Origin: Nitzschia sp. pyKryTriq1
Lineage: Eukaryota > Bacillariophyta > Bacillariophyceae > Bacillariales > Bacillariaceae
Reading direction: 5' to 3'
Assembly: GCA_956465555.1 (NCBI GenBank)
Contig: OY101116.1
Location: 1,426,001 to 1,490,000, forward strand
Length of the DNA: 64,000 nt
Shown here: in pieces, positions 5,390 to 52,618 of the stretch
Layout: each line of letters opens with the position of its first letter
How positions within the stretch are numbered: position 1 is the stretch's first letter
Translations under genes and position numbers: made by a program
The notes under the pieces: generated by a model
Seen by the model: only the letters and a program-made list of their open reading frames with translations
Database searches by the model: none
Told to the model about the DNA's origin: nothing

Positions 5390-6031
5390 ATGAGTCAACG
5401 AAAAGCATGGAACGAAGCCATGAGGTCTGCGGCCGGGGCGCAGGCGTTGCCTCCAGGATTGCAACCAAAAAACACAAAACGAAGATCGGATCGGCGGAAA
5501 AAACAAGATCGACGAGACAAAGCTCGAAAAGTGCTTGGCGTCGGTGGCCCCGAGAGCAAGGAAATTTTAGCAGCTGCTTGGATGGATGCATTGGAGGACA
5601 TTCATCCTTCTGGCGCTGGTGGCGGCGGCGAAGACGATGATAGCTACGATGAATTGGATGAACTTGAAAACGACAAGAAAAAAAGGAGCCGAACCGGATC
5701 GTCCAAGAAGGCGCAGTCGGGAGTTCTTCCCAAACGTTTCAAACCGCGTTCGGTGGCAAGCGTTTTAACGGAAGAGTTTAGTCGATTTGATGGGGTGGCG
5801 AAACCTTGGCTCGATAGTGAGGCGCGGAGGCGAGGGCAGCGGCCTCCCACTCGAAAGTTTTGCCCAGTGACTGGCATGGAAGGCATTTACACAGAGCCAA
5901 AGACGGGGCTTCCTTATGCCAATCTGAAAGCTCTTGAACAAATCAACGAACGACCTCCTCCCTGGATGACGTTGGGAGGTTCACTGGCTTACCACGAATG
6001 CGTGAAGAGTATTCGCGACGATGAGTTCTAG
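5390..6031 (+). CDS. YL1_C-domain nuclear protein (INO80C/VPS72-like)
   Basis: 213 residues, single exon, ATG in context aaaATGAGT. The N-terminal third is Lys/Arg-rich (a likely nuclear signal), then an acidic Asp/Glu patch. From about residue 155 there is a clear YL1 C-terminal domain: RKFCPVTGMEGIYTEPKTG followed by LPYANLKALEQI. This short domain occurs in subunits of the INO80 and SWR1 chromatin remodellers (Ies6/INO80C and VPS72/YL1) and binds the remodeller scaffold. Its small size and C-terminal position favour an Ies6/INO80C-like subunit over full-length VPS72, but I cannot decide. Confidence 0.8.
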   Translation: MSQRKAWNEAMRSAAGAQALPPGLQPKNTKRRSDRRKKQDRRDKARKVLGVGGPESKEILAAAWMDALEDIHPSGAGGGGEDDDSYDELDELENDKKKRSRTGSSKKAQSGVLPKRFKPRSVASVLTEEFSRFDGVAKPWLDSEARRRGQRPPTRKFCPVTGMEGIYTEPKTGLPYANLKALEQINERPPPWMTLGGSLAYHECVKSIRDDEF

Positions 6032-6913
6032 CTAGAGCAACTCGTATCTGATGGGTACCGTGTGTGCAGTCATTGGAGCCCTTGTGTGGCGTCGGCGAAT
6101 ATCCCTATTCGAGCAATTTTTAATGCGATTGCCTTGACCTCAAAGGCATACATACAATTGAGAGACAGTCGGCGGCTTGCTGTTTACCATATGCATCGAG
6201 TTCGCGATTTTGAGAATTTGATTTCCTACTATCAGAGTGTCGAGACTAGGAATTGGCAGCTTGCTACTAGATGTGGTCTCCATATGTTGCCCCATACGAT
6301 TTTGTGCTGCCCAAATATATACGAATACTGCAATGTTTATCTGACCTCAGACTTCCATGCAGGAGAGAACAGGACCCACCAACCAGCCACTCTATAGCTG
6401 CAAATCGATGCGAGTAGTTTCTCAAATGTGGCCACTGAGTAGACTGGCGACTCTATTATAGGAGCAATGTTTTGAAATTTGAGAAAGTAGTCTACTTACC
6501 GGTAGGTCTACTCTAGAGATAGTACGAGTAGGAGATGACCCGCGATTTAGTCGTTCATGAGCATGACGATTTTCTTCAGTCGACGACGAGATTTGATTTT
6601 TATTTTCCTTCATTCATGGTGACGTCATAGACTTTTCCTTTCCGTCCGTAGAAAGCTGGTAAGTTTTCTACGTGAGCCAATGGCTCCCAAAACTGCCGAC
6701 TGCTGCCACCCGCATCCCGGTATGTACATCATCGAGAGTCGAGACCACTCTCGATGAGACCTTCGACGATGATGATGGAACGATGACGAATGACGACAAT
6801 ACTGGTACTTGTAATAACCGACAGCAACAACACTCCTTTTGGAATTTCATTGCGGTGTCAGGTTGGCCTCGTCTGCTCATCTTCAAACTCTTCAAACCAT
6901 AGTTGATTCAATC
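6032..6913. other. Intergenic, 5' region of DMT transporter gene
   Basis: Several short ORFs occur here but none has recognisable homology or convincing composition. Nothing else was identified. Confidence 0.4.
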
Positions 6914-8350
6914 ATGAGGCTATTTCTTCTGGGATGTGTTCACTTGGCACTCCTTCGATACAACCATGCGTTCACGCCGGGTGCAGCGACAGCGCAAAGG
7001 GTGAAGGTGGACAGCCCAGTACTCGTGCATCGGCGCTACGAGCACCCAGCTACCCGAATATCTCCAGCTGTACCCAACAAGACGCTTTCCAGATTTGTAT
7101 CGCTCCCTTCTACCAGCTCGGACCTGGAAGAAACAGATAAATCCAAGGCCGCCAAAGCAGACAAGCTACTTGGGATTCTAGTTCTTTTGACAGTCCCAAT
7201 TTCGTGGGGCACCTACGTGCCCGTTGTCAGATATCTTTATGCAATCCAGCCTCCTGTCCCGGGATTTGTATTTTCAGCATGCTACTACGCACTGGCGGCT
7301 CTTACTACGTCATCTCTGGCGTTTTGGCAAAGTCGAAACACAAAAAGCGACCAGCCGGACAACAACGCACAAGAGAAGGCATCTACTGGCATGCCGATAG
7401 TTGCAGGAGTTGAGCTTGGAGCTTATCTATTCATCGCAAATTGCCTGCAAGTGATTGGACTTCGCACAGTTGAATCCGACCGAGCCGGATTCTTGGTCCA
7501 GCTAACAACAGTCATGGTACCGTTTGTGGAAGCTCTTTTTGCTGGGAATCTGGCTAAGGTTCCTGTACGGACATGGTTTGCTTGCGTTTTCGCATTTATT
7601 GGTCTATTTGTGATGGGTCTGGATGGAAGAATCGTGTCCGATCCCATTTCCGCATTCGTCACGGCCCTCTCCTCTTTCAATCAAGGTGACCTTCTGATTA
7701 TCGGAGCAGCCATTCTCTATACCTTGCATGTGGTTCGGCTCGGGGCCTACGCCAGGCAAACCACGCCGATGAAGCTTGCTGCCTCAAAGGCAACCGCCGA
7801 GACAATTTTCAGCATAGTTTTAGTCGGAGGTCTGACCGCTTTATCGTCTGTTCTGGGAGAGCAGACTGGCTTGCTGGGTTTTGCGTCCAGCACAGGAAAA
7901 GAAATATTGACTTTTTTCGCATCTTTCCGGGAGGGTCTATCAACAGGAAGCTTGTCACCATCTGTGCTTTTGCCTGCTGTTGGTGCTGTGCTCTGGACAG
8001 GATGGGTGACGTGTGCATACACGATATATGCGCAATCCTTTGGACAATCAAGAGTGACACCTACAAATGCAAACCTAATCTACACTTTTCAGCCTATCTT
8101 TACGGCGCTCTTCGGCTGGTTGCTCCTCGGAGAGACCATGGGCCCATCTGGTTTTCTGGGAGGAGCCATCATCGCCTCTTCTGTCTACGTGGTTGCTTCA
8201 GCAAATCTTGGGGACAACGAAGCAACTACAGACGGTGACATGACTGAGAATGGCCATCAGAAGCAGAGCTTCATAAGCGATGACACTTCCAATGCGGCCG
8301 ACAAACTGTTTCCGACGGAAAGCAGTGAGCAGAAGACTCCCCGTGCCTAA
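6914..8350 (+). CDS. Plastid-targeted EamA/DMT-family transporter
   Basis: 478 residues, single exon. The ATG at 6914 gives a hydrophobic signal peptide ending RYNHAFTPGAA. The AFTP site matches the ASAFAP-type plastid signal of diatoms (Phe right after cleavage), followed by a Ser/Arg-rich transit region. From about residue 80 a multi-pass membrane protein follows, with two EamA-like halves: LVLLTVPISWGTYVPVVRYL in the first, and TPTNANLIYTFQPIFTALFG with WLLLGETMGPSGFLGG in the second. DMT carriers move small organic solutes; the substrate is unknown. The hydrophilic C-terminus is Ser/Thr/Asp-rich. A paralogue lies at 16867-18399 on the other strand. Export across a plastid membrane is an inference from the leader. 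Confidence 0.8.
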   Translation: MRLFLLGCVHLALLRYNHAFTPGAATAQRVKVDSPVLVHRRYEHPATRISPAVPNKTLSRFVSLPSTSSDLEETDKSKAAKADKLLGILVLLTVPISWGTYVPVVRYLYAIQPPVPGFVFSACYYALAALTTSSLAFWQSRNTKSDQPDNNAQEKASTGMPIVAGVELGAYLFIANCLQVIGLRTVESDRAGFLVQLTTVMVPFVEALFAGNLAKVPVRTWFACVFAFIGLFVMGLDGRIVSDPISAFVTALSSFNQGDLLIIGAAILYTLHVVRLGAYARQTTPMKLAASKATAETIFSIVLVGGLTALSSVLGEQTGLLGFASSTGKEILTFFASFREGLSTGSLSPSVLLPAVGAVLWTGWVTCAYTIYAQSFGQSRVTPTNANLIYTFQPIFTALFGWLLLGETMGPSGFLGGAIIASSVYVVASANLGDNEATTDGDMTENGHQKQSFISDDTSNAADKLFPTESSEQKTPRA

Positions 8351-8508
8351 TAATTGTCTTGCTCCGAATCGGATAAGTGTACAGCGACGAAAGTCTAATT
8401 TTCCATATGCAGGGCCAATGAATCGTGCACCAGCTCTCTGGAATGATTTAATTTTCCGATGGAGTAGGACAAGAAACAAGCTCCAATTCATCCGGGTCAT
8501 GCTTCACC

Positions 8509-11500
8509 TTATTTTATTTCAGATTCCGTCACGGTATCGCGTTCTCCAGCGAAATCTACCCTCTTGTGGCCTGATTCGGACTGTTTGTTGATCGGCGGAG
8601 CTCGTTCGAGATCAAGGTCGCCAGAACAATGCTCTGACCTTTCTTTAGTGGGCTTCTCCGCCCCGGCAGCCGGACTTCTCTCTGAGACGCCAAAATCATC
8701 TGCCGCCCCTGTCGCAAAGTCAGATGCGACTCCCATCCGAGAGGTGGTCATACGGAAATTTCCAAAGCTAGGTCTCGTTGGCTGTCGCTGGTGCCGTACC
8801 TTCATCATCAGCGGTACAAAAATAAACAGAAGCATAGACATGCAGCATGCAAATACCAAAGATACGCTCAGAAAGTATCGAGGCCCGACGCTGTCTTCTT
8901 CGATTAGAAACAAAACAGGTCCTGCCACAAGTAACAATTGAAGCCAACAAAACAGCGCCAATCCCAGCCCAGCGCTCTCGCTATATTCCTCGCCCCATCT
9001 CCGTGCCTTGTATGCCTCATAAACAGCGAGAAGCAAGATACAGAAGTTTATCCCGACCGTCAACCCCAGGAATGTCCAGCCAGCCGGGCCCATATTTCCG
9101 CATGTTCCATATAACTTCCAATCTTCTTCTTTAACAACTTTGATTTCATAGTTCATCGGATCCACCAATGTCCAGACGAGCATCAAAATGAAATTAAGCA
9201 CGAACTGAACGCTGAAGTGCGCAACGGCGCGCTTTGCCGAGACATTAGTACGTCGAAATGCCATGGCTCCGTCGGCTACTTGGTTGATTCGCCAGAGTTT
9301 GGCGAGCAGTGCCGAAATCACCAGGCTAAACCCCATACTTAAAAACCAAGCATTTGCCATGCAAGCAATGTCGTGTCCGCGAGCTGATAGTTCCTCCCAA
9401 CCAAGCAAGCTCCTGGAGAGAATAGACAGACCGATGACAAAAACACCGCCACAAATCGCCGAAAGGAAAATTGGCTGCATCATTTTTACTTCGTTCTTCT
9501 CTCGTCTCATGTGCACCCAAATTGCAAACGCGATGGATGTGCATGAGATGACTGCCACCATCGTAAACCCGACAATTCTAATAGAACCCTCCGTCGAGAA
9601 TTGTGGGGAATTGGATACGTCTTGAGACAATAGAAAAACAAGGTCTCGTCCCACACAACCGGGATAGTTGCCACCATCGACAACAGCAAACGACAAGGCT
9701 CCAGTAGCGACCCCTGCTTGTAGATCTTTCGCCGTCACAGTATAATTTATGGTGAAGCTTTGGTTGGGTTCCACTATGACTAACTTTGGCTTATCATCCG
9801 ATCCAAACACAGAAGCTGTCGTAATGGTAACCCAATCAGGCATGGATTTGAATGCGATTTGCACTGGAAATGCTTCACCATTTACAACGCTGACACTTTC
9901 CGGAATAATCTCATCGCCATCGCTTACTCCCGAGAAATTCAATTGAGGGGCAGACAGGATTACATTTTCCATGGCGGGACAATCAAAGCAGCTCTGGAAT
10001 TCCTTCACCCAGTACGATGCGGATGTACAGGAATCCTTGTTTTGGATGAAATCAAGTGCGGTAGTTGCGCTAGTGTCATTGACCAATCGCCCCTGGATAC
10101 TGGTATCGTAAGGTTCATCAGAGTGAACGACTTGCAGATACTCTCCGATGATACTCTGTATGAGATGGTCTCCAATGTCACTTGGTTCCTCGCCCTGAAT
10201 TAGTAGATCGTCACTCAAGATACTCGGAAACGGGTGGAAACCGCTGCACATCCAACTACTTGTTGCATATTTGTAGAGTTTCAGCCTTTCGACTGGAACA
10301 TACTCCTGCGTTTCCTTGTCTAGAATCTCAAGCATGACCAGCCTTGGGGCCTTCATTTCCGTATTGTAGGTGTAACGAAGCCCAGAGACTTGGAACAATC
10401 GATCGCCATTCGTGGCTACGTTGGATACAAAGGCAGCCTCTCTTGTTACCAATTCAAACAGTCTGTAAATTGTGACCCCGCTGATTGTCCCCGTACATTC
10501 CGTACTGGCAAAAGGGAGAGATGACCATATATCGGATACCTGAATCGTTGAATGATCAGCCAGAAGTTAGTCAAGAATAATTTGAATGAACCCGACAAAA
10601 GAAACACAAGAATGGCTACCGATACGTTGACTCACCCTTACAGGTCCCGCAGGCCAGCCCTCCCCGCGGATACCACCGGACTGGATGAATGAAAAATCAG
10701 CTCCAGTGTACCAGCGCAATGCATCTGTGTGTAGGTTGCCGATTGGACATTCTCCTCCAAAGCACGCACGAAAGTCGTCCAACCTTGCGATCGGCATGGC
10801 AACCGACAAACCTCGAACAGGATTGTTGAGCCGCGCCTCTTCTGCCAGTTCTCTCAGAAAAACCACATCTCGCCGCAGCTCGTCGTCCTTTGTCGAATTG
10901 GGGAAGCTCTCTAGGCTATGCTCCAAGAGGGTTAAACCAGAAACCTTTTCCCGGTCGTCTGTAAGAGAGATTCTTAGTTGACGAGCAATGTCGTCGTCAT
11001 CCTCATAACTGATGACCCAAACGTTATCCTTCCCGACCTGTCTTGGTTGCTCGTAGCTTTTGTCATGAGTCCGAATATTAACAAGTACCGCGGGTCCATG
11101 CTCAAATTCTAGCACCGTGTCAAGAAAAGGTTGAAAGGCTTCTGCATGGGTCTTTATTAGAACTGGGATCCAACATCTCTCATTCAAAGAAATTTCGTCA
11201 ACAGTTGTTCGATTTTTCTCCAAAACGTATGCGTCGTAGGGTGTAAAGGTCTCCAAACAGCCTTTCCCCCTGTTTTCATGATATATATAATTCAAGAGTG
11301 CCCTCGCGGCCGCCTCAGGTGGAAGAGATTTGACCGCCCCAGTCGAAATATATTGTTCTTGGACATAAATGATGGCAAGACCTGTAGCTTCATCGAAATG
11401 AACATTCTTGACGTACTGGCTCCAAGAGTTTGTCGTTTCAACAAACTTATTTCCGTGAATAGTCGGCCGAAAAGTCTCTGTTTGAAGACCTGAAAGATCT

Positions 11501-11829
11501 CGGATGGATACCTCAGAATCACCCTTGTGTTGATCCATTAACGACGGATTCGTCCAGAAAGTCCTCATTCCGAAATAGTCATGCATGATCAATCGATTAA
11601 CGTTCCAGTCCAACGGATGCATCTGCACAAAGACGCTTTGGTAGTCCAACCTATTGATGATAAGATTTGCATCATCAATCCCGTCCGAGTGCTGCCGGAG
11701 AAAGGCTCGAATCAAGGCAATGCCTCCCTCGCAACTGCTGTCGTCCACATCGACACAATCCTCGAGTCCTCCACTCAATAGCGTTGTCGTGCTGAACACG
11801 AGGCTGACCGAAGGCGACGAAACAGCCAT
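8509..11829 (-). CDS. 5'-nucleotidase-like ectodomain fused to class C GPCR
   Basis: Two exons, 11829-10636 and 10539-8509, with a 96-bp phase-0 intron (GTGAGT..TTCAG). This gives about 1074 residues from ATG 11829 (context ccaaccATGG). Residues 1-300 resemble a degenerate metallophosphatase half. About 300-550 are a clear 5_nucleotid_C domain: GNLHTDALRW, SGGIRGEGWPAGPVR|VSD across the intron, LPFAST, FQVSGLRYTY. A beta-rich spacer follows, then from about residue 718 seven membrane segments of the GABA-B/mGlu (7tm_3) type, then a charged cytoplasmic tail of roughly 80 residues. The metal ligands typical of active 5'-nucleotidases (DxH, GNHE, GHxH) are not seen in the N-terminal half, while the base/ribose-binding half is kept. 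I infer a nucleotide- or nucleoside-sensing receptor. No strong signal peptide is visible, so an upstream exon may be missing. Confidence 0.8.
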
Positions 11830-12637
11830 GGTTGGCAAACTGGGAGACTAATACAACAATGTTTCTCTGATTTTTTGTTTCCTTTTTGGACTGCCTTCTC
11901 TTTCTTTTCAAGGGGCGCTGCAATATGGAAAGGGAACGAAGCTCTTGGTTGCGACCTCTACCCTCAACTCTCGACTATTCTACTACTACTACGAACTACG
12001 ACTCTCTCTCGGTGAGAGCTACCGGCAGTACCGGTAGTAGAAGAATTATACTGGCTCACGATGGAGACAAAATACGTAGTAGAAGTATGAAAAACGATTA
12101 TGCCCACCCATAGCAGGTACCGGCAGGGTACGTGTACCGGTACCGGTAGGACCTAATGTTCGAGTACGGGTAGAGACTACCGGTACTCGAAAGTGGGGAT
12201 GCAGAGATCTGCGTCGCGTGTCTCGGTACCGGTTCACTTCTTGGAGACCTATGCGAGAAATTTAGCCATCCCGTACCGGTACCAGTACCGTACCGGTGCT
12301 GTATGAGTACCAGGTACTCGTACAGTACTGGTACTTGTACAACAGTACAACAAGGGGTAATAGACCCGGTACATGTCATACTGTACCGGTATCGGGGTAC
12401 ACCGGGGTGTGGGTCATGGTCATCTCAACACAAAATTCAACATCACGCGCCCCCCTCCTCTTCCCATGCATCTCCCATCATCTCTCGTCGGCTCGCATCG
12501 ATCTCGAATGAAACATCTTTGACTTTTCTGGAATACAGTTCCGAATTGAGCGAGTCGTCGTCGTCGTCAACGCCATTACTGACTATCGCTGCCTTGTAAT
12601 ACTCCACGAATTGAAGTAAGCACAGTCTCTTGATACC
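11830..12637. repeat. Intergenic region dense in TACCGGTA/GTAC palindromic words
   Basis: This lies between the divergent GPCR and calpain genes. From about 12010 to 12410 it is filled with TACCGGTA, GTACCGGTAC and GTACAGTAC-like words, many self-complementary. No ORF with coding character was seen. Promoters of both flanking genes must lie here. Confidence 0.55.
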
Positions 12638-14071
12638 ATGTCACCACTACCAAGCTGGGAGCAATTGTATAATGGTCGGGCTGGATTCTTTTGGAATTTT
12701 TTGTGCTGCCCGTTCATTGGAGCATTTGGCTTGATCTGGCGATCATTGCATGTTTATGCTTTTCCATGCTGTACCGTCCTCTGCCAAAGATTGACGGTGA
12801 ATTGTTTTTGGCGTTACTTTTGTTTTTGGTTTCGTTGGCCCTACGAGGACGAGGGCTTTTTTGGAGCCAAGGCTCTGGGAAATCACGACGCTGAAACAGG
12901 CGCCCAAATGAATCGAAAAACTGATTGGATTCGAGCCCACGAACTGAAGCAATTTCAAGGCAAGCGTCCCCAGCTTTTTGAAGGTGAAATAGAACCACAG
13001 GATTTGTGTCAAGGTGCCGTTGGGGATTGCTGGCTGGTGGCAGCTTTTGCCTGTGCCAGTGAATTTCCCGATTTGATCCGGCACATGTTTCTCACAAAAG
13101 AATATAATCCTCGTGGATTGTACAAGGTTCGAATATACGATCCTCAAGTCGAACAATGGAAAGTTGTGGTGGTAGATGATCGCATTCCTTGCCCAAAGGG
13201 CACAAAATCCCCCCGCTTCATGAAGCCCAATGGAAATGAGCTATGGGCCATCATTCTAGAGAAGGCGTATGCAAAGCATTGTGGAAGCTATGCAGACATG
13301 TCGGGTGGTTTTGTGTTGTGGGCCTGGCTGTCCATGACGGGTCACAATGTCTTTCAACTATCTCTAGATTCGAAAAAAGGCAAATCATGGTACCGAGAAG
13401 ATATGAAAGCGCTTCCGAACCCCAAGGACAAGCGGGATTGTGGATTCCGTCGCTCGAAAGAAAAGTTCAATGATGAAGAAGTTTGGACCCTTCTCAAGAA
13501 GTATGATGCCCAAAAAGCCTTGCTTTCAGCTTCCATTGGTAAACGCGCCGATCGGGTAACGGATGGACCAGCGGGAGAACAGATGCTTGAGAAGGAAGGT
13601 TTGGTGGCAGGGCATGCGTATTCCATCATTGCTGCCGTGCAAGTCGGTGAACGCATTCGAGGAGTACCAAAACCCAACGGCAAGACCTTCCGATTGGTCC
13701 ATTTGCGCAATCCTTGGGGGTCATATGAATGGAAGGGAGCTTGGAGCGACACTAGCAGCATGTGGAAGAAATACAAATCTATTGCCAAACAAGTCGGTCA
13801 TACCAATGCTGATGATGGAAGTTTTTGGATGAGCTTTACAGACTTTAAGAAAACGTTCACTACCATCAATGTCTGCGACAGAGACACCAATAAGGATGCA
13901 TCCTTGGACATAAACGAGGACAACGGATCACTTGGCATTTTGCGAGGCTTCTGCTGTGGATGTGCTCGATTCTGGTGTCTTTGCCAAGGCTTTCGAAATT
14001 TGTATCTGTCGCACGAAACGACCGACAAAACATTGGATGCCAATGAAGGGAAATGTTGTTGGATTTGCTAG
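12638..14071 (+). CDS. Calpain-type cysteine protease (peptidase family C2)
   Basis: 477 residues, single exon. The calpain catalytic core is complete: QGAVGDCWLVAA gives the nucleophile Cys131, GHAYSIIA gives His326, and HLRNPWGSYEWKG gives Asn358. An EF-hand or C2 domain is not evident, so Ca2+ control, if any, would lie in the core. The first 75 residues are unusual, rich in Cys, Trp and Phe (FWNFLCCPF, PCCTVLC, CFWRYFCFWFRW) and could insert in or be acylated onto membranes. The C-terminus has a second Cys cluster (GFCCGCARFWCLC) and ends CCWIC. It therefore looks like a membrane-associated cytosolic protease. Confidence in the enzyme family is high and in membrane attachment only moderate. 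Confidence 0.9.
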   Translation: MSPLPSWEQLYNGRAGFFWNFLCCPFIGAFGLIWRSLHVYAFPCCTVLCQRLTVNCFWRYFCFWFRWPYEDEGFFGAKALGNHDAETGAQMNRKTDWIRAHELKQFQGKRPQLFEGEIEPQDLCQGAVGDCWLVAAFACASEFPDLIRHMFLTKEYNPRGLYKVRIYDPQVEQWKVVVVDDRIPCPKGTKSPRFMKPNGNELWAIILEKAYAKHCGSYADMSGGFVLWAWLSMTGHNVFQLSLDSKKGKSWYREDMKALPNPKDKRDCGFRRSKEKFNDEEVWTLLKKYDAQKALLSASIGKRADRVTDGPAGEQMLEKEGLVAGHAYSIIAAVQVGERIRGVPKPNGKTFRLVHLRNPWGSYEWKGAWSDTSSMWKKYKSIAKQVGHTNADDGSFWMSFTDFKKTFTTINVCDRDTNKDASLDINEDNGSLGILRGFCCGCARFWCLCQGFRNLYLSHETTDKTLDANEGKCCWIC

Positions 14072-14928
14072 TAGTAAGAATATTGAAGTTCTAGCTAAAA
14101 GGGATAAGAGCGTGGATAATTATTGTTTTTTCTTTGAACAAATAGCCGAAATGAAGTCGCTCGCTCTGTGTTTACCGGGGCTTGCGACCCGCACAAGAAG
14201 CAATACATCTTGGATTTCTTGCTTGTGGCTGCGTTGCGCGCCGTTGATGACGAAAACATGCAATACCATGCACTTGTTCGCTGCTTTGCGATATCTAGCT
14301 GGTACTACTAAGAGTAGAACTACGAGTACGAATACTGGTACTCGTTACTACTCTTGTTCACTGCTCTAGATCATCCCGAAAACCCTCTTGTTGATCCTCT
14401 CGTACGCTCCAGAAGATATATTTTTCTACTGTAGACGGTCTATTGATCCTCTCGTACGCTCCAGAAGATATATTTTTCTACTGTAGACGGTCTATTACTC
14501 TTCATGATACATAATATAATAATAATAATATGTACTGTAAGAGAATGTTGCTATGTATGATTTGCTACGGTAGTAGCCTACTAGGTAGGTTCTACGCGTG
14601 TGCTACGTGATACTGGTACTTTGTACTGCGCAGAGGAGTCCATCAAGTCAATTTGAAATGGACCGCAAAAAGCAAAGAGAAGGCGCCGGCGTTGCACGAG
14701 CGCTGGCCGGCCACACATCAGTTTGCAACCGACACTTTCGGAAATTTGAATTGGTGTGCTTGCGAAAAGGAGTGTTTCTCATTGGCCCTCTTTGAGCAAC
14801 TGCCACCGGACGAGACGATAAAAAAGCGAGCACACCATCATCTCGTTTCTCCACAAAAAGTCAGAAGGACGAGGACGGAATTGTCGTTCCTACTACCTGT
14901 ACTGTACAGTTACTTTATTCTGGACACC
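14072..14928. other. Intergenic region with short tandem duplication
   Basis: It holds the 52-bp tandem repeat listed separately and GTAC-like words near 14310-14345. A frame open from 14653 into the P450 gene is probably 5' UTR read-through, since the better start is at 14929. Nothing else was seen. Confidence 0.4.
14391..14494. repeat. Exact 52-bp tandem duplication
   Basis: Two adjacent, apparently identical 52-bp units (14391-14442 and 14443-14494), each starting ttgatcctctcgtacgctcc. The lack of divergence suggests a recent duplication. It lies in the gap between calpain and P450. Confidence 0.95.
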
Positions 14929-16665
14929 ATGGCCCGCTTTTCTTGGTTGTACGAGTTGGCGAGGAAGCCCGTTCCAGTCAAAAAGGAACCACCAAACTTC
15001 TTCCATGATGCCTCTGAGGTGATCGTTGAGAAGTTCCACGGTGCCTCTAAGGTGATCGTTGAGAAGGTCCAAGACGCCTCTCATGTAGCAAGTGCTAAGT
15101 TTGAGGAAACGCGGCAGTATGTCGAGGAAATTGACTTTGAAAGCATGCGTGATACCATTCAGGGAAAGATCCAAAATGCCACGGACGCTGCCACAGATTT
15201 CGTTGTATCGCTAGATCCTAGAGAAATGCCAGAAGACATGATCATGCCTCTAGCTATGGCGGCTCTAGTTGCTCTCGTTTTGGTTGCTCTCCTTTACCGA
15301 AAGAGACAGCTTCGGCTCCGACACCACGCACAATATGGTGATAACGCATTCCCCCCATTTGCCCCATGCAATTCTTTTGAGACAGTGTCGGCACTTACTG
15401 GATCAGAACAGCCGTGGTTCTTCAAGCAGTGCGCCGAAATGGTTGGGCCTGTCTTCCGTCTTCACCTGCCATTCACTAAAGCTCCCATGTTTGTCGCCAT
15501 TGGAGACGTCGAGACAGCCAAGGAAATCCTGCAAGATCCAGAGACTGTCAAGCCGGCAACAATGTATTCCTCCATTGCTACGATCGCGGGTGGGCCTAAC
15601 ATTGTTTCCTCGGAAGGAATCCATTGGAAGCTCTCTCGAAAGTGTTTGTCGCCCGCCTTTATGAAATCACACCTGGATCGAATGCATCGAGTCTGCAAAG
15701 ACCAGACTGAAATTTGGATCGAAAGTCGCCTCGAACCAGCTATTAAAGCGGGGAACGATTTCGATGTCGGTGAAGAGTGTATGCACCTGACCATCGCGAT
15801 CATTTGTCGTGCTGCATTTGAATACAAAATCAAGGACGGGGAGGCAAAGGCATTGATGAAGGATCTTGCAGCTGTGTCTCAAGACTATGCCGTTGACGAG
15901 ATCCAAAACCCGCTTCGAAAGTTAATGGGTCCAAGTCGTGAGAGCGCTGCTGCCAGGGATCGAATTCAAGCATTTGGCAAGAAAATTCTTAGCTCTCACC
16001 GTAAGCAATCGAAGATTCGGCGCACATCGACCGTGGTATCAAAATCTATCATCGCCTGCATCGACAAGAGTACAACCTACGAGGATGACACTCACCGCAT
16101 TGCTGATATCGTCATGCTGTTGCTTTCTGGACATGACACAACGGCATACACATTGGCGTGGATCCTGCTAGAGTTGGCTCGAAATCCACATGAGCTTAAA
16201 TACCTACGAGACGCTCTCGGAGGAAACGATGATGGATTGGCCCAGCAAATGTTGAAGGATATTCTCCGCGAAGGAATGCGTCTTCGACCGGTGAGCCCTG
16301 GTATTGGCGTCCGAATGATCGGGAAAGATTTCTACTTGAAAGACAAAGCGATCGTCATTCCGAAGGGGTCGCATATCATGTTCCCTTCCATGGTACTCAC
16401 AAGAAACGGTGTCGAAGACCCTGAAACATTTCGCCCCTCGAGATGGACTGAGCACCCTGATCGAACATTCCTTCCGTTTTCAACTGGAAAGCGCAACTGT
16501 GTTGGGCAGGCTCTGGCGCTAGCAGAAGTCACATGGGTTCTCTCGCGGCTGTGCGCTAAATATGTTTTTGAAGTGGTGGACGAAGGAAAAGTTGAGTTCT
16601 GCGCTACATTGAAATGCGTAGGAGCACGTTTGAAAGCACACCGCTACGAAAAATCCGGATACTAG
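14929..16665 (+). CDS. Cytochrome P450 with N-terminal repeat region
   Basis: 578 residues from ATG 14929 (caccATGG). The P450 signatures are all present: I-helix LLLSGHDTTA, K-helix ILREGMRLRP (ExxR), a PSMVLTRN..PETFRPSRW block, and the haem loop FLPFSTGKRNCVGQ with Cys524 as the iron ligand. P450s are haem monooxygenases for lipids, sterols, carotenoids or xenobiotics. The substrate is not predictable, but the ExxR/haem spacing fits the CYP4/97-like clan. Unusually, about 100 residues precede the single membrane span (about 103-122). They include a near-repeat of 11 residues (HDASEVIVEKF, HGASKVIVEKV, QDASHVASAKF) predicted to be amphipathic helix. An upstream in-frame GTG/ATG extension to 14653 is possible but less likely. 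Confidence 0.92.
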   Translation: MARFSWLYELARKPVPVKKEPPNFFHDASEVIVEKFHGASKVIVEKVQDASHVASAKFEETRQYVEEIDFESMRDTIQGKIQNATDAATDFVVSLDPREMPEDMIMPLAMAALVALVLVALLYRKRQLRLRHHAQYGDNAFPPFAPCNSFETVSALTGSEQPWFFKQCAEMVGPVFRLHLPFTKAPMFVAIGDVETAKEILQDPETVKPATMYSSIATIAGGPNIVSSEGIHWKLSRKCLSPAFMKSHLDRMHRVCKDQTEIWIESRLEPAIKAGNDFDVGEECMHLTIAIICRAAFEYKIKDGEAKALMKDLAAVSQDYAVDEIQNPLRKLMGPSRESAAARDRIQAFGKKILSSHRKQSKIRRTSTVVSKSIIACIDKSTTYEDDTHRIADIVMLLLSGHDTTAYTLAWILLELARNPHELKYLRDALGGNDDGLAQQMLKDILREGMRLRPVSPGIGVRMIGKDFYLKDKAIVIPKGSHIMFPSMVLTRNGVEDPETFRPSRWTEHPDRTFLPFSTGKRNCVGQALALAEVTWVLSRLCAKYVFEVVDEGKVEFCATLKCVGARLKAHRYEKSGY

Positions 16666-48625: not shown

Positions 48626-50840
48626 TTACAGACAAACGTGGTCTGTGCTATTGCTAGTGGAATCCGTGGGGAATGTTTTGTCCGCGTCGTTGTCAGGAGT
48701 TCCAACAACTTCTTCGGTGGGGGGATTGGGGAGACAGTCAACAAACCCGATAGTGTTACGAGGAATGCACAGAGGGCCTCTTATTGGCTCCGTTGAGCAG
48801 TGGAAGCGACATATTTTGTGAAGATCGTCGAAATTGCACATCATTGAAATCATATCCATGGTGCGATCCTCGACATCCGCGTCCTCTTCGAATGCGTTTT
48901 CGGCGATGCTCTCGACCCGCTCAAAGAATTCAACCATGATTTTATCTTCGGGGCTCCCCTCCGGAAAGTTGCGAACGCCAGCGTGCTGAAAGTCGCCAGT
49001 AAACATTACCCCTGGAGCGGCCTCCAAAACGACTAGATGTTGATTTTCTCGAACGATGCGATACTGTTCGTCTTCTTTACCTTCGACGATGCGGCAATAG
49101 CCATAAGAGCACCTGAAGGAGAAGCCAGAGGACGGCGATTTGATTTGATGAGTTTTAAAAACGCTGGACAGTCAGGGTCAGCCAAGTACGTTCAACGACT
49201 TACCCTCTTCGATCGATTTGATTCTTCTGTACCCCAACACTGATCTTTCCACTGCCCCCCATTCCAATCAGCACACTGCAGGGAGCATAAGGCGAGGCCA
49301 TTGCTTCATTGTATGCTGCTCTGTCGTATTCCCAGCCCCCTACTGGAATTGCAACGAATGGAGCATCGTCGTCATCATCTGCCATCTTTGGGTCCTGGGG
49401 ATACCAGCTCGTGGTTTGACGGGGAATGTCGTGGTGGATGGACTGATCTTCGGTTCCTCCGATCAAAATACCCAAATCATGGATCCTTTCATGTTCTGGA
49501 TGAATGAGTCCATGTTCTGATAAAAGTGACTCCACCATGGATCTAGTTGAGACGAAATGGTGTCCATCATGACGCCGCAGTGGAACTTGCCATCGATAAT
49601 CGTTTCGAATATCTTGGCAGATCGAATTGGAAAAGGTGATATAACCGTGCCGGGAAGACTTGTCGATGTCGCTGGCGATTGACTTTCGTAGACGTCCACG
49701 CTCGTCAAAGAAGATTGATTTCAATTTAGAAACTGCCTCGGCCGAAAGACCTGCCTTGTGCATTCTTGCTCTCGATGTTCCTGGATAAAAGGGTCTTTTC
49801 AGCTTCTTGTTTACCATTTCCATGATACTCTTCTGGCGCACAAACTCTTCGCACGAAAGCTCTTCTTCGGTGACCAACAGAGACCCGTCACGAATTCGAT
49901 CTGGTATTTTGGTTTCTCCTCCGAGAGTGAAGTGGCAGATCTCCGCTTCTGGGTTCTTCTTCCTTTCTTCAAGGTCACGGAGAAGTCGTTCACATTCGTG
50001 CCTAACTTTTTGTACCCCTTCATCCTTCAGGATGCGTTCTGGTATTGCATACGTGTCGTGGGCAGCTTCGTCTTTGGTATAGGCATCGGGTCGAATAGAG
50101 CATCCAGCCCGTTGGAGTGCAGCCGATAACATTCTCTGCAACTGTCTCAGATGTCTGGCATGCAATCCACTGGGCACAATCTTGCCATCAATTTCCTCCT
50201 CAATTTCACCGAGTCTTTGATTCAATAGTTGGGCCACGAGATCTTTCAGGTCTGGCAAGTCCAACAGCAGATTCAACAAGGAAACATCCAACGTGCCAAT
50301 TACTGCTGTGGTGGAACTGCCCTGAACAACAACGTGGTGCATCGGCATCGCTAGGCGCCTCAAAAAGGCATACTTGCGCAGTGAGCTCCTTGGGAAGAGC
50401 CAGTCGGCTTCGTCTGCCCCTGCAATGACGCTCGTAGCGGCCGAAAGCTTTTTGCACGCCTCGAGGATTTCAAGACTGTCGTCGGACCGACTCGATAGCA
50501 AACACTTCACATCCTGTAACAAGCGCGTATTGCCGTTACTGGAGTCATCTGTTGACTTCTGACAAGTAGTGAGGAGTCGACGCCAGGTCATTCGGATTCG
50601 ATCGCGAATGTTGTTGATCTCATCATCCTTGGAAATATCACCACCATCGTTCACTCGAGTCGTAACAAGGCAGCCAGTTCTTATGTTTCCCGGAATTTCT
50701 TCCAAGAGCAAGGGCCGCAGAGATATGGAGAAAAAAGCCTCCGAGGAATGGAACAGAGAATTGATGCTCGTCGTATCTTCTGTACTACCAGTAGACTGAT
50801 TCAGTTCGATTGACGGCACCTTCCCATTGAAATTCGTCAT
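48626..50840 (-). CDS. 2OG-Fe(II) dioxygenase-like protein (HxD...H)
   Basis: Two exons, 50840-49204 and 49112-48626, with a 91-bp phase-2 intron (GTAAGT..TTCAG). The join makes a Gly codon and keeps a long open frame, about 707 residues. The N-terminal 430 residues are helical and charged with no known family. Around residue 470 there is QSIHHDIPRQ (candidate HxD iron pair), then APCSVLIGMGGSGKISV, and after the intron VMFTGDFQHAGVRNF, which looks like the distal His of the double-stranded beta-helix fold (GDxxHAG) with a following Arg. That spacing and order fit 2-oxoglutarate/iron oxygenases. The substrate is unknown. The C-terminal 80 residues are Cys-rich, then acidic. The oxygenase call rests on motifs read by eye. 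Confidence 0.6.
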
Positions 50841-51489
50841 GGTATGTATTGACTGGTTCAGTAGCGCTCAGCGCTCACGGTTTTGCGCTTTTATGAATGA
50901 AGGGCACGATTGACAAACAACTAGACTAGATGTCTTGCTGCATCATGTTGTTTCGTGCGTGTTTCGTGGTCAGCGAAGGTGAATACGAGTACTTGTACTC
51001 GTAATGGAAAAAGAATCGTGAAATAAAAAGTCCGATAAAAAGAAGCACAATAAGAAGAGACAAAAGAGAGGAGAGGAAAAGTCCCAACATCAGGCCGCAT
51101 GCATGCAGGATGCAGGCAGAACCTCTACATAAAAAAATGTTATTCCCTTGTTGGCAGAACCTTGCTTGACCAACAAGTACTACTTATTGGTCCCGCTAGC
51201 TGCGCCTACCGCATCGACGAGAAGGACAGTCGTTTGAGTCGACTTTTGCATTCGGATGGGTCCACCTTTTTCTCGGAAGCCAGGGCGGGATTGATGCGAG
51301 TGGGGTGAGTGTGTGAGTCAGGTGTGAGTGACCGTTGTTCGTGGGTTTCTCGCCAACGACGAACGACCAATTTTTTCAGCTAGTCTACTCGTACGACACC
51401 AACCACAACATCATCACCATCTTTCGTTATTGGTTCTTCTACCTACATAATTCTCGCATCACTTCAGTTGCAGTTGCGTCTACTATTTC
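50841..51489. other. Intergenic, divergent promoter region
   Basis: An A/G-rich stretch at 51005-51090, CGAGTACTTGTACTCGTA near 50984-51002, and CT-rich sequence just before the Sec14 gene. No gene was seen. Confidence 0.4.
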
Positions 51490-52618
51490 ATGTCTTCTTG
51501 CTTGTGCCATCTGAACGAGCTAATATCACAACCTTGCTCGTGTTTTGTAAGAAATCAAGCCACCGCCGACGAAGCTTCCATCTTTGAAACTACCGGTATG
51601 CCTGCACCAACCGCAATTCCAATGACGTCTGCCGTGTCCTTGATGGTCGGAGAGGTGCCGACCATTACTCCGCAGTCTGAGAATGATATTCTCCAAGAGA
51701 AGATCTCATCCCCAGCTTCACTAGTCGAGGAAGATCAACCCGATGAGGAAGCTGTGGAAGAATTGAAAAGTATAGTTCGAAAAGCGTGGGATGATGAACC
51801 AGAATCTACAACCATCGGGAACAACTGTCGAGAAGATTGCGCCGCCCTCTTGGAAAAAATGCTCGCCGACCGACCACAGCTGATACGCATATTGATCGCC
51901 CGAAAATACCAAATGGAAGCATGTATGAGTTTGTTCTTTGAGCAGCTTCGGTTTCGAGCGAGATGGAAGCCCGAAAGCATTCAACCCGAGGATATTCCGA
52001 ATGCCTTGCCTTGTAAGTTGACTCGGGTTATTATATACTGTCGTGATGCACTGGTAAAGAACGTTCTCCTAACTTTTTCAAACAGCTGGTGCCTGGAGAC
52101 TGGCGGGGTACACAAAAGATGGTATTGTAGTGAGCAATTACAAGCTTCGATACTGGAAACCGGGCAAGTTGGGGTCAACACCCCAAAAGGGTGGAAGCAA
52201 CCAGAGTGACGGGTTGGATGATGCTGTTCAAGAATACACAAATTATGTCGTTTATATGATTGAATCCATGATTGCGAACATGAAGGCGCCACTGACTCCG
52301 CAGAAGTTTGTTGTCTTGTTTGACCTGAAGGGTTTCACGCCTTCGCTAGTTTTTCGAAAAGACGTCCGGCTTATGATTCGGAAGTTGATTTATGTGGCGC
52401 AATCCCAGTATCCAGAACGTCTGCATCAAACACTTTTGGTGAATGCTCCTTTTGGTTTTGAGTCTGCTTGGAGGTTGATTAAGCCGCTTCTTGACGAGAA
52501 GACTGCTGCCAAGATTCATTTTGTCAATGTAGAGTCGCTGACAAAGGAAATTGACGCAGAAGTTTTGTCGAAGGAATATGGAGGCAAGCGCGAGGAGTAC
52601 CCGCTTCCGTCTGCGTAG
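51490..52618 (+). CDS. Sec14-like CRAL-TRIO lipid-transfer protein
   Basis: Two exons, 51490-52012 and 52086-52618, with a 73-bp intron (GTAAGT..ACAG) in phase 1. The join gives NALPSGAWRLAGYTKDG, about 351 residues. An internal ATG at 51598, directly after a TACCGGTA word, is an alternative start. The N-terminal CRAL-TRIO-N helices (ADRPQLIRILIARKYQMEAC) precede the lipid-binding domain: VVLFDLKGFTPSLVFRKDVR and a TLLVNAPFGFESAWRLIKPL block, then LDEKTAAKIHFV. Members carry phosphatidylinositol, phosphatidylcholine or other lipids between membranes. The ligand cannot be assigned. There is no GOLD or membrane domain, so it is a soluble protein. It converges with the TTL gene. Confidence 0.85.

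Follow-up and report, generated by a model that had tools for sequence, protein, structure and literature searches.

This report concerns a gene in a 64,000-nucleotide stretch of the genome of the diatom Nitzschia sp. pyKryTriq1 (contig OY101116.1, positions 1,426,001 to 1,490,000; the whole of this stretch is called the window, and coordinates below are those of the window unless another sequence is named). The gene encodes a class C G-protein-coupled receptor (GPCR) in which a 5'-nucleotidase-like ectodomain precedes a seven-transmembrane (7TM) domain. Its parts, all on the reverse strand, are as follows.

8509..11829, reverse strand: whole receptor coding region (1074 amino acids plus stop)
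10636..11829, reverse strand: exon 1, with the N-lobe and the first third of 5_nucleotid_C (ATG at 11829)
10540..10635, reverse strand: GT-AG intron of 96 bp inside 5_nucleotid_C (from the sequence and homologues)
8509..10539, reverse strand: exon 2, a single open frame with the remaining 5_nucleotid_C, linker, stalk, 7TM domain, C-terminal tail and stop
10816..11817, reverse strand: predicted degenerate metallophosphatase-fold lobe, about residues 5-338 (bounds aligned from the model of the relative P0014)
10228..10773, reverse strand: 5_nucleotid_C lobe, residues 353-502, interrupted by the intron (Pfam, E 1e-23)
9979..10029, reverse strand: cysteine linker with C569, C582 and C585 (each Cys in all 61 rows that have letters)
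9619..9966, reverse strand: predicted beta-rich stalk, about residues 590-705 (secondary structure of the P0014 model, via alignment)
8812..9594, reverse strand: class C (GABA-B-like) 7TM domain, residues 714-974 (Pfam 7tm_3)
8512..8781, reverse strand: C-terminal tail, about residues 985-1074 (by the model of the relative P0010)

A sequence-only reading of the window had already recognised this gene, and our re-derived gene model agrees with it in strand, coordinates and the presence of a single 96-bp intron. The position of the intron has to be revised, as it does not join the two domains but splits 5_nucleotid_C itself (profile positions 14-57 are encoded by exon 1 and 60-153 by exon 2). 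The join between enzyme-like and receptor parts therefore lies in an uninterrupted exon, the open frame of which (676 amino acids) carries the second part of 5_nucleotid_C, the linker and the 7TM domain. The intron borders are GTGAGT..CAG (10635-10540); 19 splice pairs in total would keep the frame open here, and the chosen junction, ..SGGIRGEGWPAGPVR/VSDIWSSLPF.., gives a gap-free alignment with homologues. There is an in-frame TAG 18 nt upstream of the ATG (11829-11847 region).

Both Pfam domains score well above their cut-offs. The match to 5_nucleotid_C, with the motifs GNLHTDAL, SGGIR and FQVSG reported earlier, reaches 84.6 bits (cut-off 23.6), and that to 7tm_3 reaches 98.9 bits (cut-off 33.5; E 5e-28), and the fusion is confirmed. 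The 7TM fold is of the class C type, and of the cysteines that we take to be conserved in the extracellular loops of class C receptors, C791 is present in 58 and C878 in all of the 60 rows with letters. At the level of sequence, both the gene fusion and the type of its 7TM part are firmly established. Neither Metallophos nor an ANF or periplasmic-binding (Venus-flytrap) ectodomain was matched in the window protein by Pfam at E up to 1, and identification as a GABA-B receptor proper was rejected for want of a flytrap in these matches. The C-terminal tail is presumably cytoplasmic and disordered: in the P0010 model, the predicted local distance difference test score (pLDDT) is below 50 at residues 976-1088.

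The nucleotidase-like ectodomain

For the N-terminal half, the earlier proposal of a metallophosphatase domain holds as regards the fold, on the predicted model of P0014 rather than of the window protein itself: in structure comparisons, this model matches 5'-nucleotidases and metallophosphatase-only chains, and its ectodomain matches CD73 over 466 residues. Sequence profiles, on the other hand, barely detect the fold. When global alignment was forced, the N-lobe by itself shrank to 3 columns, and both lobes together gave 436 columns with no confidence in the N-part. The P0010 model has low confidence in the C-lobe, and structure comparison with it gave 7TM matches only. In relatives, the fold of both lobes is predicted with good confidence.

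The di-metal ligands of CD73 are, as we understand them, D36, H38, D85, N117, H220 and H243. Relatives were compared in an alignment of 63 rows (A3, without P0001, P0004, P0005 and P0036), which was enlarged to 67 rows by the window protein, P0085, P0086 and a paralogue from the same genome (L017). Profile alignment, spacing and the predicted secondary structure, without residue-level superposition, served to set the ligand columns, with two or three candidates allowed for each of four of the six ligands. On this footing, a count over 60 rows (7 were dropped for gaps) finds D36 in 2, H38 in none, D85 in 53 (with E in a further 5), N117 in 1, H220 in 2 and H243 in 5. No row has five or more of the six, and 59 of the 60 have two or fewer. 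The register of N117 at P0014 125-127 was favoured because a strand is predicted at 122-123 and a helix at 127-130; most rows lack the Asn in the 114-117 register also. GN[HD][DE] is found in 2 of the 66 family rows as against 15 of 17 nucleotidases, and GH[STD] in 2 of 66 as against 12 of 17. The earlier impression that the metal ligands were lost is right for most of them family-wide, the loss being well established from aligned sequences, but it does not extend to the column of the bridging Asp (D in 57 and E in 5 of 64 rows), nor fully to the window protein, which keeps three or four candidates.

We take the substrate-pocket contacts of CD73 to be R395, F417 and F500, plus R354, N390 and D506. 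As equivalents of the first three, 55 of 62 rows (5 rows were dropped for gaps) have R, F/Y and F/Y/W, and the window protein has R388, F408 and W494; there, F357, Q383 and H500 replace R354, N390 and D506, leaving three of the six contacts. Of the nucleoside-binding half said to be kept, the Arg and both aromatics are thus indeed present, but the other three contacts are not. Since the former are kept and the latter variable, binding of a nucleoside-like ring in the cleft is plausible, and recognition of ribose and phosphate by this pocket would be less so.

Relatives, genomic copies and neighbouring genes

The 40.65-Mb assembly contains 40 matches to 7tm_3 (each exon counted separately) and 13 to 5_nucleotid_C; full retrieval covered the class C loci apart from 13 (17 of the 40 7tm_3 matches). 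Two distinct genes have both domains. The second of them, at C2:50042-52180 on the contig that also carries the window, is a single uninterrupted frame of 1668 amino acids (L017 2452-7455, plus strand) and has long Thr, Ser and Asn repeats. Among 10 other receptor frames scanned with Pfam, 5 have an ANF, Peripla_BP or SBP ectodomain above cut-off, a weak OpuAC match is present in one, and the other 4 show no ectodomain match in frame. There is one strong G-alpha in the assembly. Two further loci encode proteins with a hydrophobic stretch and 5_nucleotid_C, with two matches in one case (L019 2430-5024, minus strand) and one in the other (L020 2560-4080, plus strand), no Metallophos match being listed at either. 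Eight silicon-transporter matches were also found in the assembly.

Beyond this genome, the earlier suggestion that the same fusion be sought elsewhere was borne out, as three protein searches gave at least 58 distinct clusters marked with both domains. This is a lower bound, the roughly 8000 candidates that shared the most words having been scored, and it rests on the Pfam marks of the collection, P0022 and P0058 being the two proteins rescanned; it includes the near-copies P0086 and P0087. All 11 clusters with an organism name are from diatoms (we take the named sources other than Nitzschia to be such): Seminavis robusta (4), Cylindrotheca closterium (2), Nitzschia (2), and Thalassiosira profunda, Cyclotella cryptica and a Bacillariaceae metagenome-assembled genome (one each). 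Five fused clusters bear MMETSP transcript names (P0022, P0025, P0051, P0086 and P0087). The existence of the family is likewise clear from its sequences. Bacterial nucleotidases, nearly all marked with Metallophos, rank far below the fusion receptors in the protein search, and tblastn against plasmids gave no match.

A tree of the 7TM part took in every other homologue, for a total of 30 nucleotidase-type rows, together with 20 further receptors of the genome, 10 of them being those scanned with Pfam. The nucleotidase receptors need two changes on it, and a single origin is not rejected (approximately unbiased test, p-AU 0.481); flytrap-type receptors of the same genome (L033, L035 and L045) lie close to them. 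Branches in this tree are long, 11 of its forks are open, and the program cautioned that it may contain false joins.

At the locus itself, the receptor gene is convergent with a gene for an EamA transporter (6818-8347, plus strand), 158 bp separating the two stops, and a calpain-type protease gene begins upstream of it (12620-14068, plus strand), the intergenic region 12000-12420 being rich in TACCGGTACC-like words. A YL1_C protein is encoded nearby (5390-6028, plus strand). Window positions 6443-15404 are 100% identical over 8962 bp to the end of contig C7 (C7:2486500-2495461), unlike positions 50000-51500, which were found once only in the assembly; the identical copy is probably an assembly overlap or a very recent duplication.

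A proposed sensor and the alternatives to it

We think it rather probable that the protein is a class C GPCR in which a complete two-lobed module of the CD73 kind, with most of its di-metal site lost, stands in place of the usual Venus flytrap and acts as a sensor. The fusion together with a pseudoenzyme fold is very likely, and a sensor with a clamshell mechanism likely; that the ligand is a nucleoside or nucleotide we would put a little short of an even chance. The module would lie outside the cell, where a small aromatic molecule, probably one resembling a nucleoside or nucleotide, could be bound in the cleft between the lobes by the Arg and two aromatics. The lobes would then close on it, as 5'-nucleotidases move between open and closed states, and the movement would be relayed through the cysteines and the beta-rich stalk to the 7TM domain and a heterotrimeric G protein, the molecule being sensed rather than cleaved. 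The idea that an enzyme fold was reused as a nucleotide or nucleoside sensor, put forward in the sequence-only reading, is upheld for the fold of the ectodomain, the identity of the ligand being still a matter of inference.

A portable sensor is also suggested by P0066 (1015 amino acids), which has a hydrophobic start, the family ectodomain, one hydrophobic stretch and Guanylate_cyc (Pfam: 5_nucleotid_C E 5.9e-27, Guanylate_cyc E 3.7e-26). It shows 31% identity to P0010 over 53% of the latter, and is the one sequence on which this point depends. More tentatively, one may imagine that diatoms have a large set of class C receptors for purines or nucleotides, in which a dead ecto-5'-nucleotidase takes the place of the flytrap and does its work by opening and closing its lobes, the module, found on a cyclase too, being a general eukaryotic sensor cassette of enzyme origin; this wider picture is possible, but we would not presume it.

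Several observations, in addition to the indirect placing of the ligand columns, weigh against the sensor reading. The window protein has three ligand candidates (D62, H228 and H255), more than any other member. If ligands are sought within three columns to either side and in a second N117 register, 0, 1, 2, 3 and 4 of them are found in 4, 35, 16, 4 and 1 rows, respectively, and the sole row with four is the window protein, by addition of an Asn near the N117 position; equivalents of D36 and H38 are absent from it even so. Because of these candidates, partial metal binding may occur in this copy. Within the N-part, 15 of 66 family rows have a loose D-x-H at some place (17 of 17 nucleotidases) and 34 of 66 have GD (13 of 17), while the forced alignment of both lobes puts the GNHE region, with no confidence, at P0014 114-117, some 10 columns before 125-127. 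Profile-profile comparison of the N-lobe gave a probability of 1.3% and a score of 21.5, the best of 40 column shuffles reaching 19.2. In the pocket, the R354, N390 and D506 columns are variable (rank fractions within the lobe 0.84, 0.87 and 0.82), the F500 column has a rank fraction of 0.63, and 7 of 62 rows do not pass the pocket test. All three residues are missing from P0057, P0059 and P0060; P0058 retains just a Tyr; the Arg is absent from P0050 and P0085; and L017, the other gene of this genome with the fusion, has lost the Arg and one of the two aromatics. No second cyclase fusion was found among the candidates scored in a search from P0066. By hydropathy and eye, no clear signal peptide is present in the window gene model or most relatives, nor did a look by eye upstream give a convincing candidate for a signal-peptide exon; many relatives, some of them transcript-derived, likewise begin at the first strand of the domain, and hydrophobic leaders were seen, again by hydropathy and eye, in P0003, P0009, P0014, P0042, P0046 and P0066.

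The same architecture could have had its pocket repurposed, so that the ligand is neither nucleoside nor nucleotide and paralogues bind different small molecules. The variability of the R354, N390 and D506 equivalents, the losses in P0057-P0060 and the L017 paralogue, and the nearly invariant residues that the N-lobe has of its own (F98, H102, P103, W106 and N109 in P0014 numbering) are all in keeping with this, but retention of the Arg and both aromatics in 55 of 62 rows is not, and we regard such repurposing as unlikely. Those retained pocket residues also tell against a structural or adhesive pseudoenzyme, which would dimerise or bind a partner protein and have no small-molecule ligand, as does the occurrence of a like module on a cyclase, where sensor modules are found. 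CD73 forms a dimer and class C receptors function as dimers, which would suit such a role, and the ligand residues of the enzyme are largely gone; we nevertheless think it improbable.

If an active ecto-5'-nucleotidase were attached to the 7TM domain, so that nucleotides were cleaved and their product was signalled, this would account for the complete enzyme fold of the P0014 model, for the retained bridging Asp and, in the window protein, for D62, possibly H228 and H255, and the Asn near N117 seen on the wider reading. This reading was rejected as the principal explanation on the ligand counts, since the H38 equivalent is found in none and that of D36 in 2 of 60 rows, neither being in the window protein, and no row has five of the six ligands on either reading; activity of this kind appears very unlikely. 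Hardly conceivable, finally, is an artefact in which two adjacent genes were merged by a false gene model: we saw no transcript from the gene itself, but the fusion lies within a single exon, the paralogue is uninterrupted (on these two grounds the artefact was rejected), and at least 58 clusters are fused, five of them from transcript sets.

If the sensor reading is correct, an enzyme-derived two-lobed module on a class C receptor would point to the clamshell principle, rather than the flytrap family, as what the 7TM domain requires. No ligand for the diatom 5_nucleotid_C receptors is known in the literature searched. The partly retained aromatic pocket leads to a short, testable list of ligands, and the many solved CD73 inhibitor complexes, with the close match to CD73, provide ready-made compounds that could be used at once.

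Comparison with known receptors and enzymes

The pairing of domains is not new, although the sequence-only reading knew of no described receptor of this layout. 5_nucleotid_C is named in one class C receptor of Capsaspora (PMC3251606), appears for diatom receptors as '5-nucleotide-C' in the legend of Figure 4 of PMC3727952 (its sole mention in the text), and is reported in class C receptors of choanoflagellates and other close animal relatives (PMC12716839). In the parts of these papers available to us, the C-terminal domain alone is named, and the fold of the N-half, the loss of ligands and a role in sensing are not discussed. The main texts of three papers on diatom GPCRs or genomes do not contain the word nucleotidase (PMC7452957, PMC5485032, PMC10328945), and by title and abstract we found no literature on the N-half, ligand loss or function of such receptors (most subscription papers and supplements being outside this scope). 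Our protein searches for relatives turned up no proteins named from Capsaspora or choanoflagellates, those proteins not having been retrieved themselves. The Seminavis relatives P0007, P0009, P0032 and P0058 are publicly named GABA (acid) type B receptors and are marked with 7tm_3 and 5_nucleotid_C only; these names can reflect the 7TM part alone.

Class C receptors sense by means of flytrap or Cache modules, according to PMC12716839. From GABA-B and other class C GPCRs, the window receptor differs in that no ANF or periplasmic-binding domain was matched in it and its ectodomain is of another fold. It has the same 5_nucleotid_C and 7tm_3 pairing as the Capsaspora, diatom and choanoflagellate receptors of the papers cited. 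From CD73, the Escherichia coli 5'-nucleotidase and the Thermus enzyme (2z1a) it differs by the loss of most metal ligands and the replacement of other pocket contacts, and by the stalk and seven transmembrane helices that come after the module. Among receptor nucleotidyl cyclases, P0066 shares the family ectodomain and differs in its output domain.
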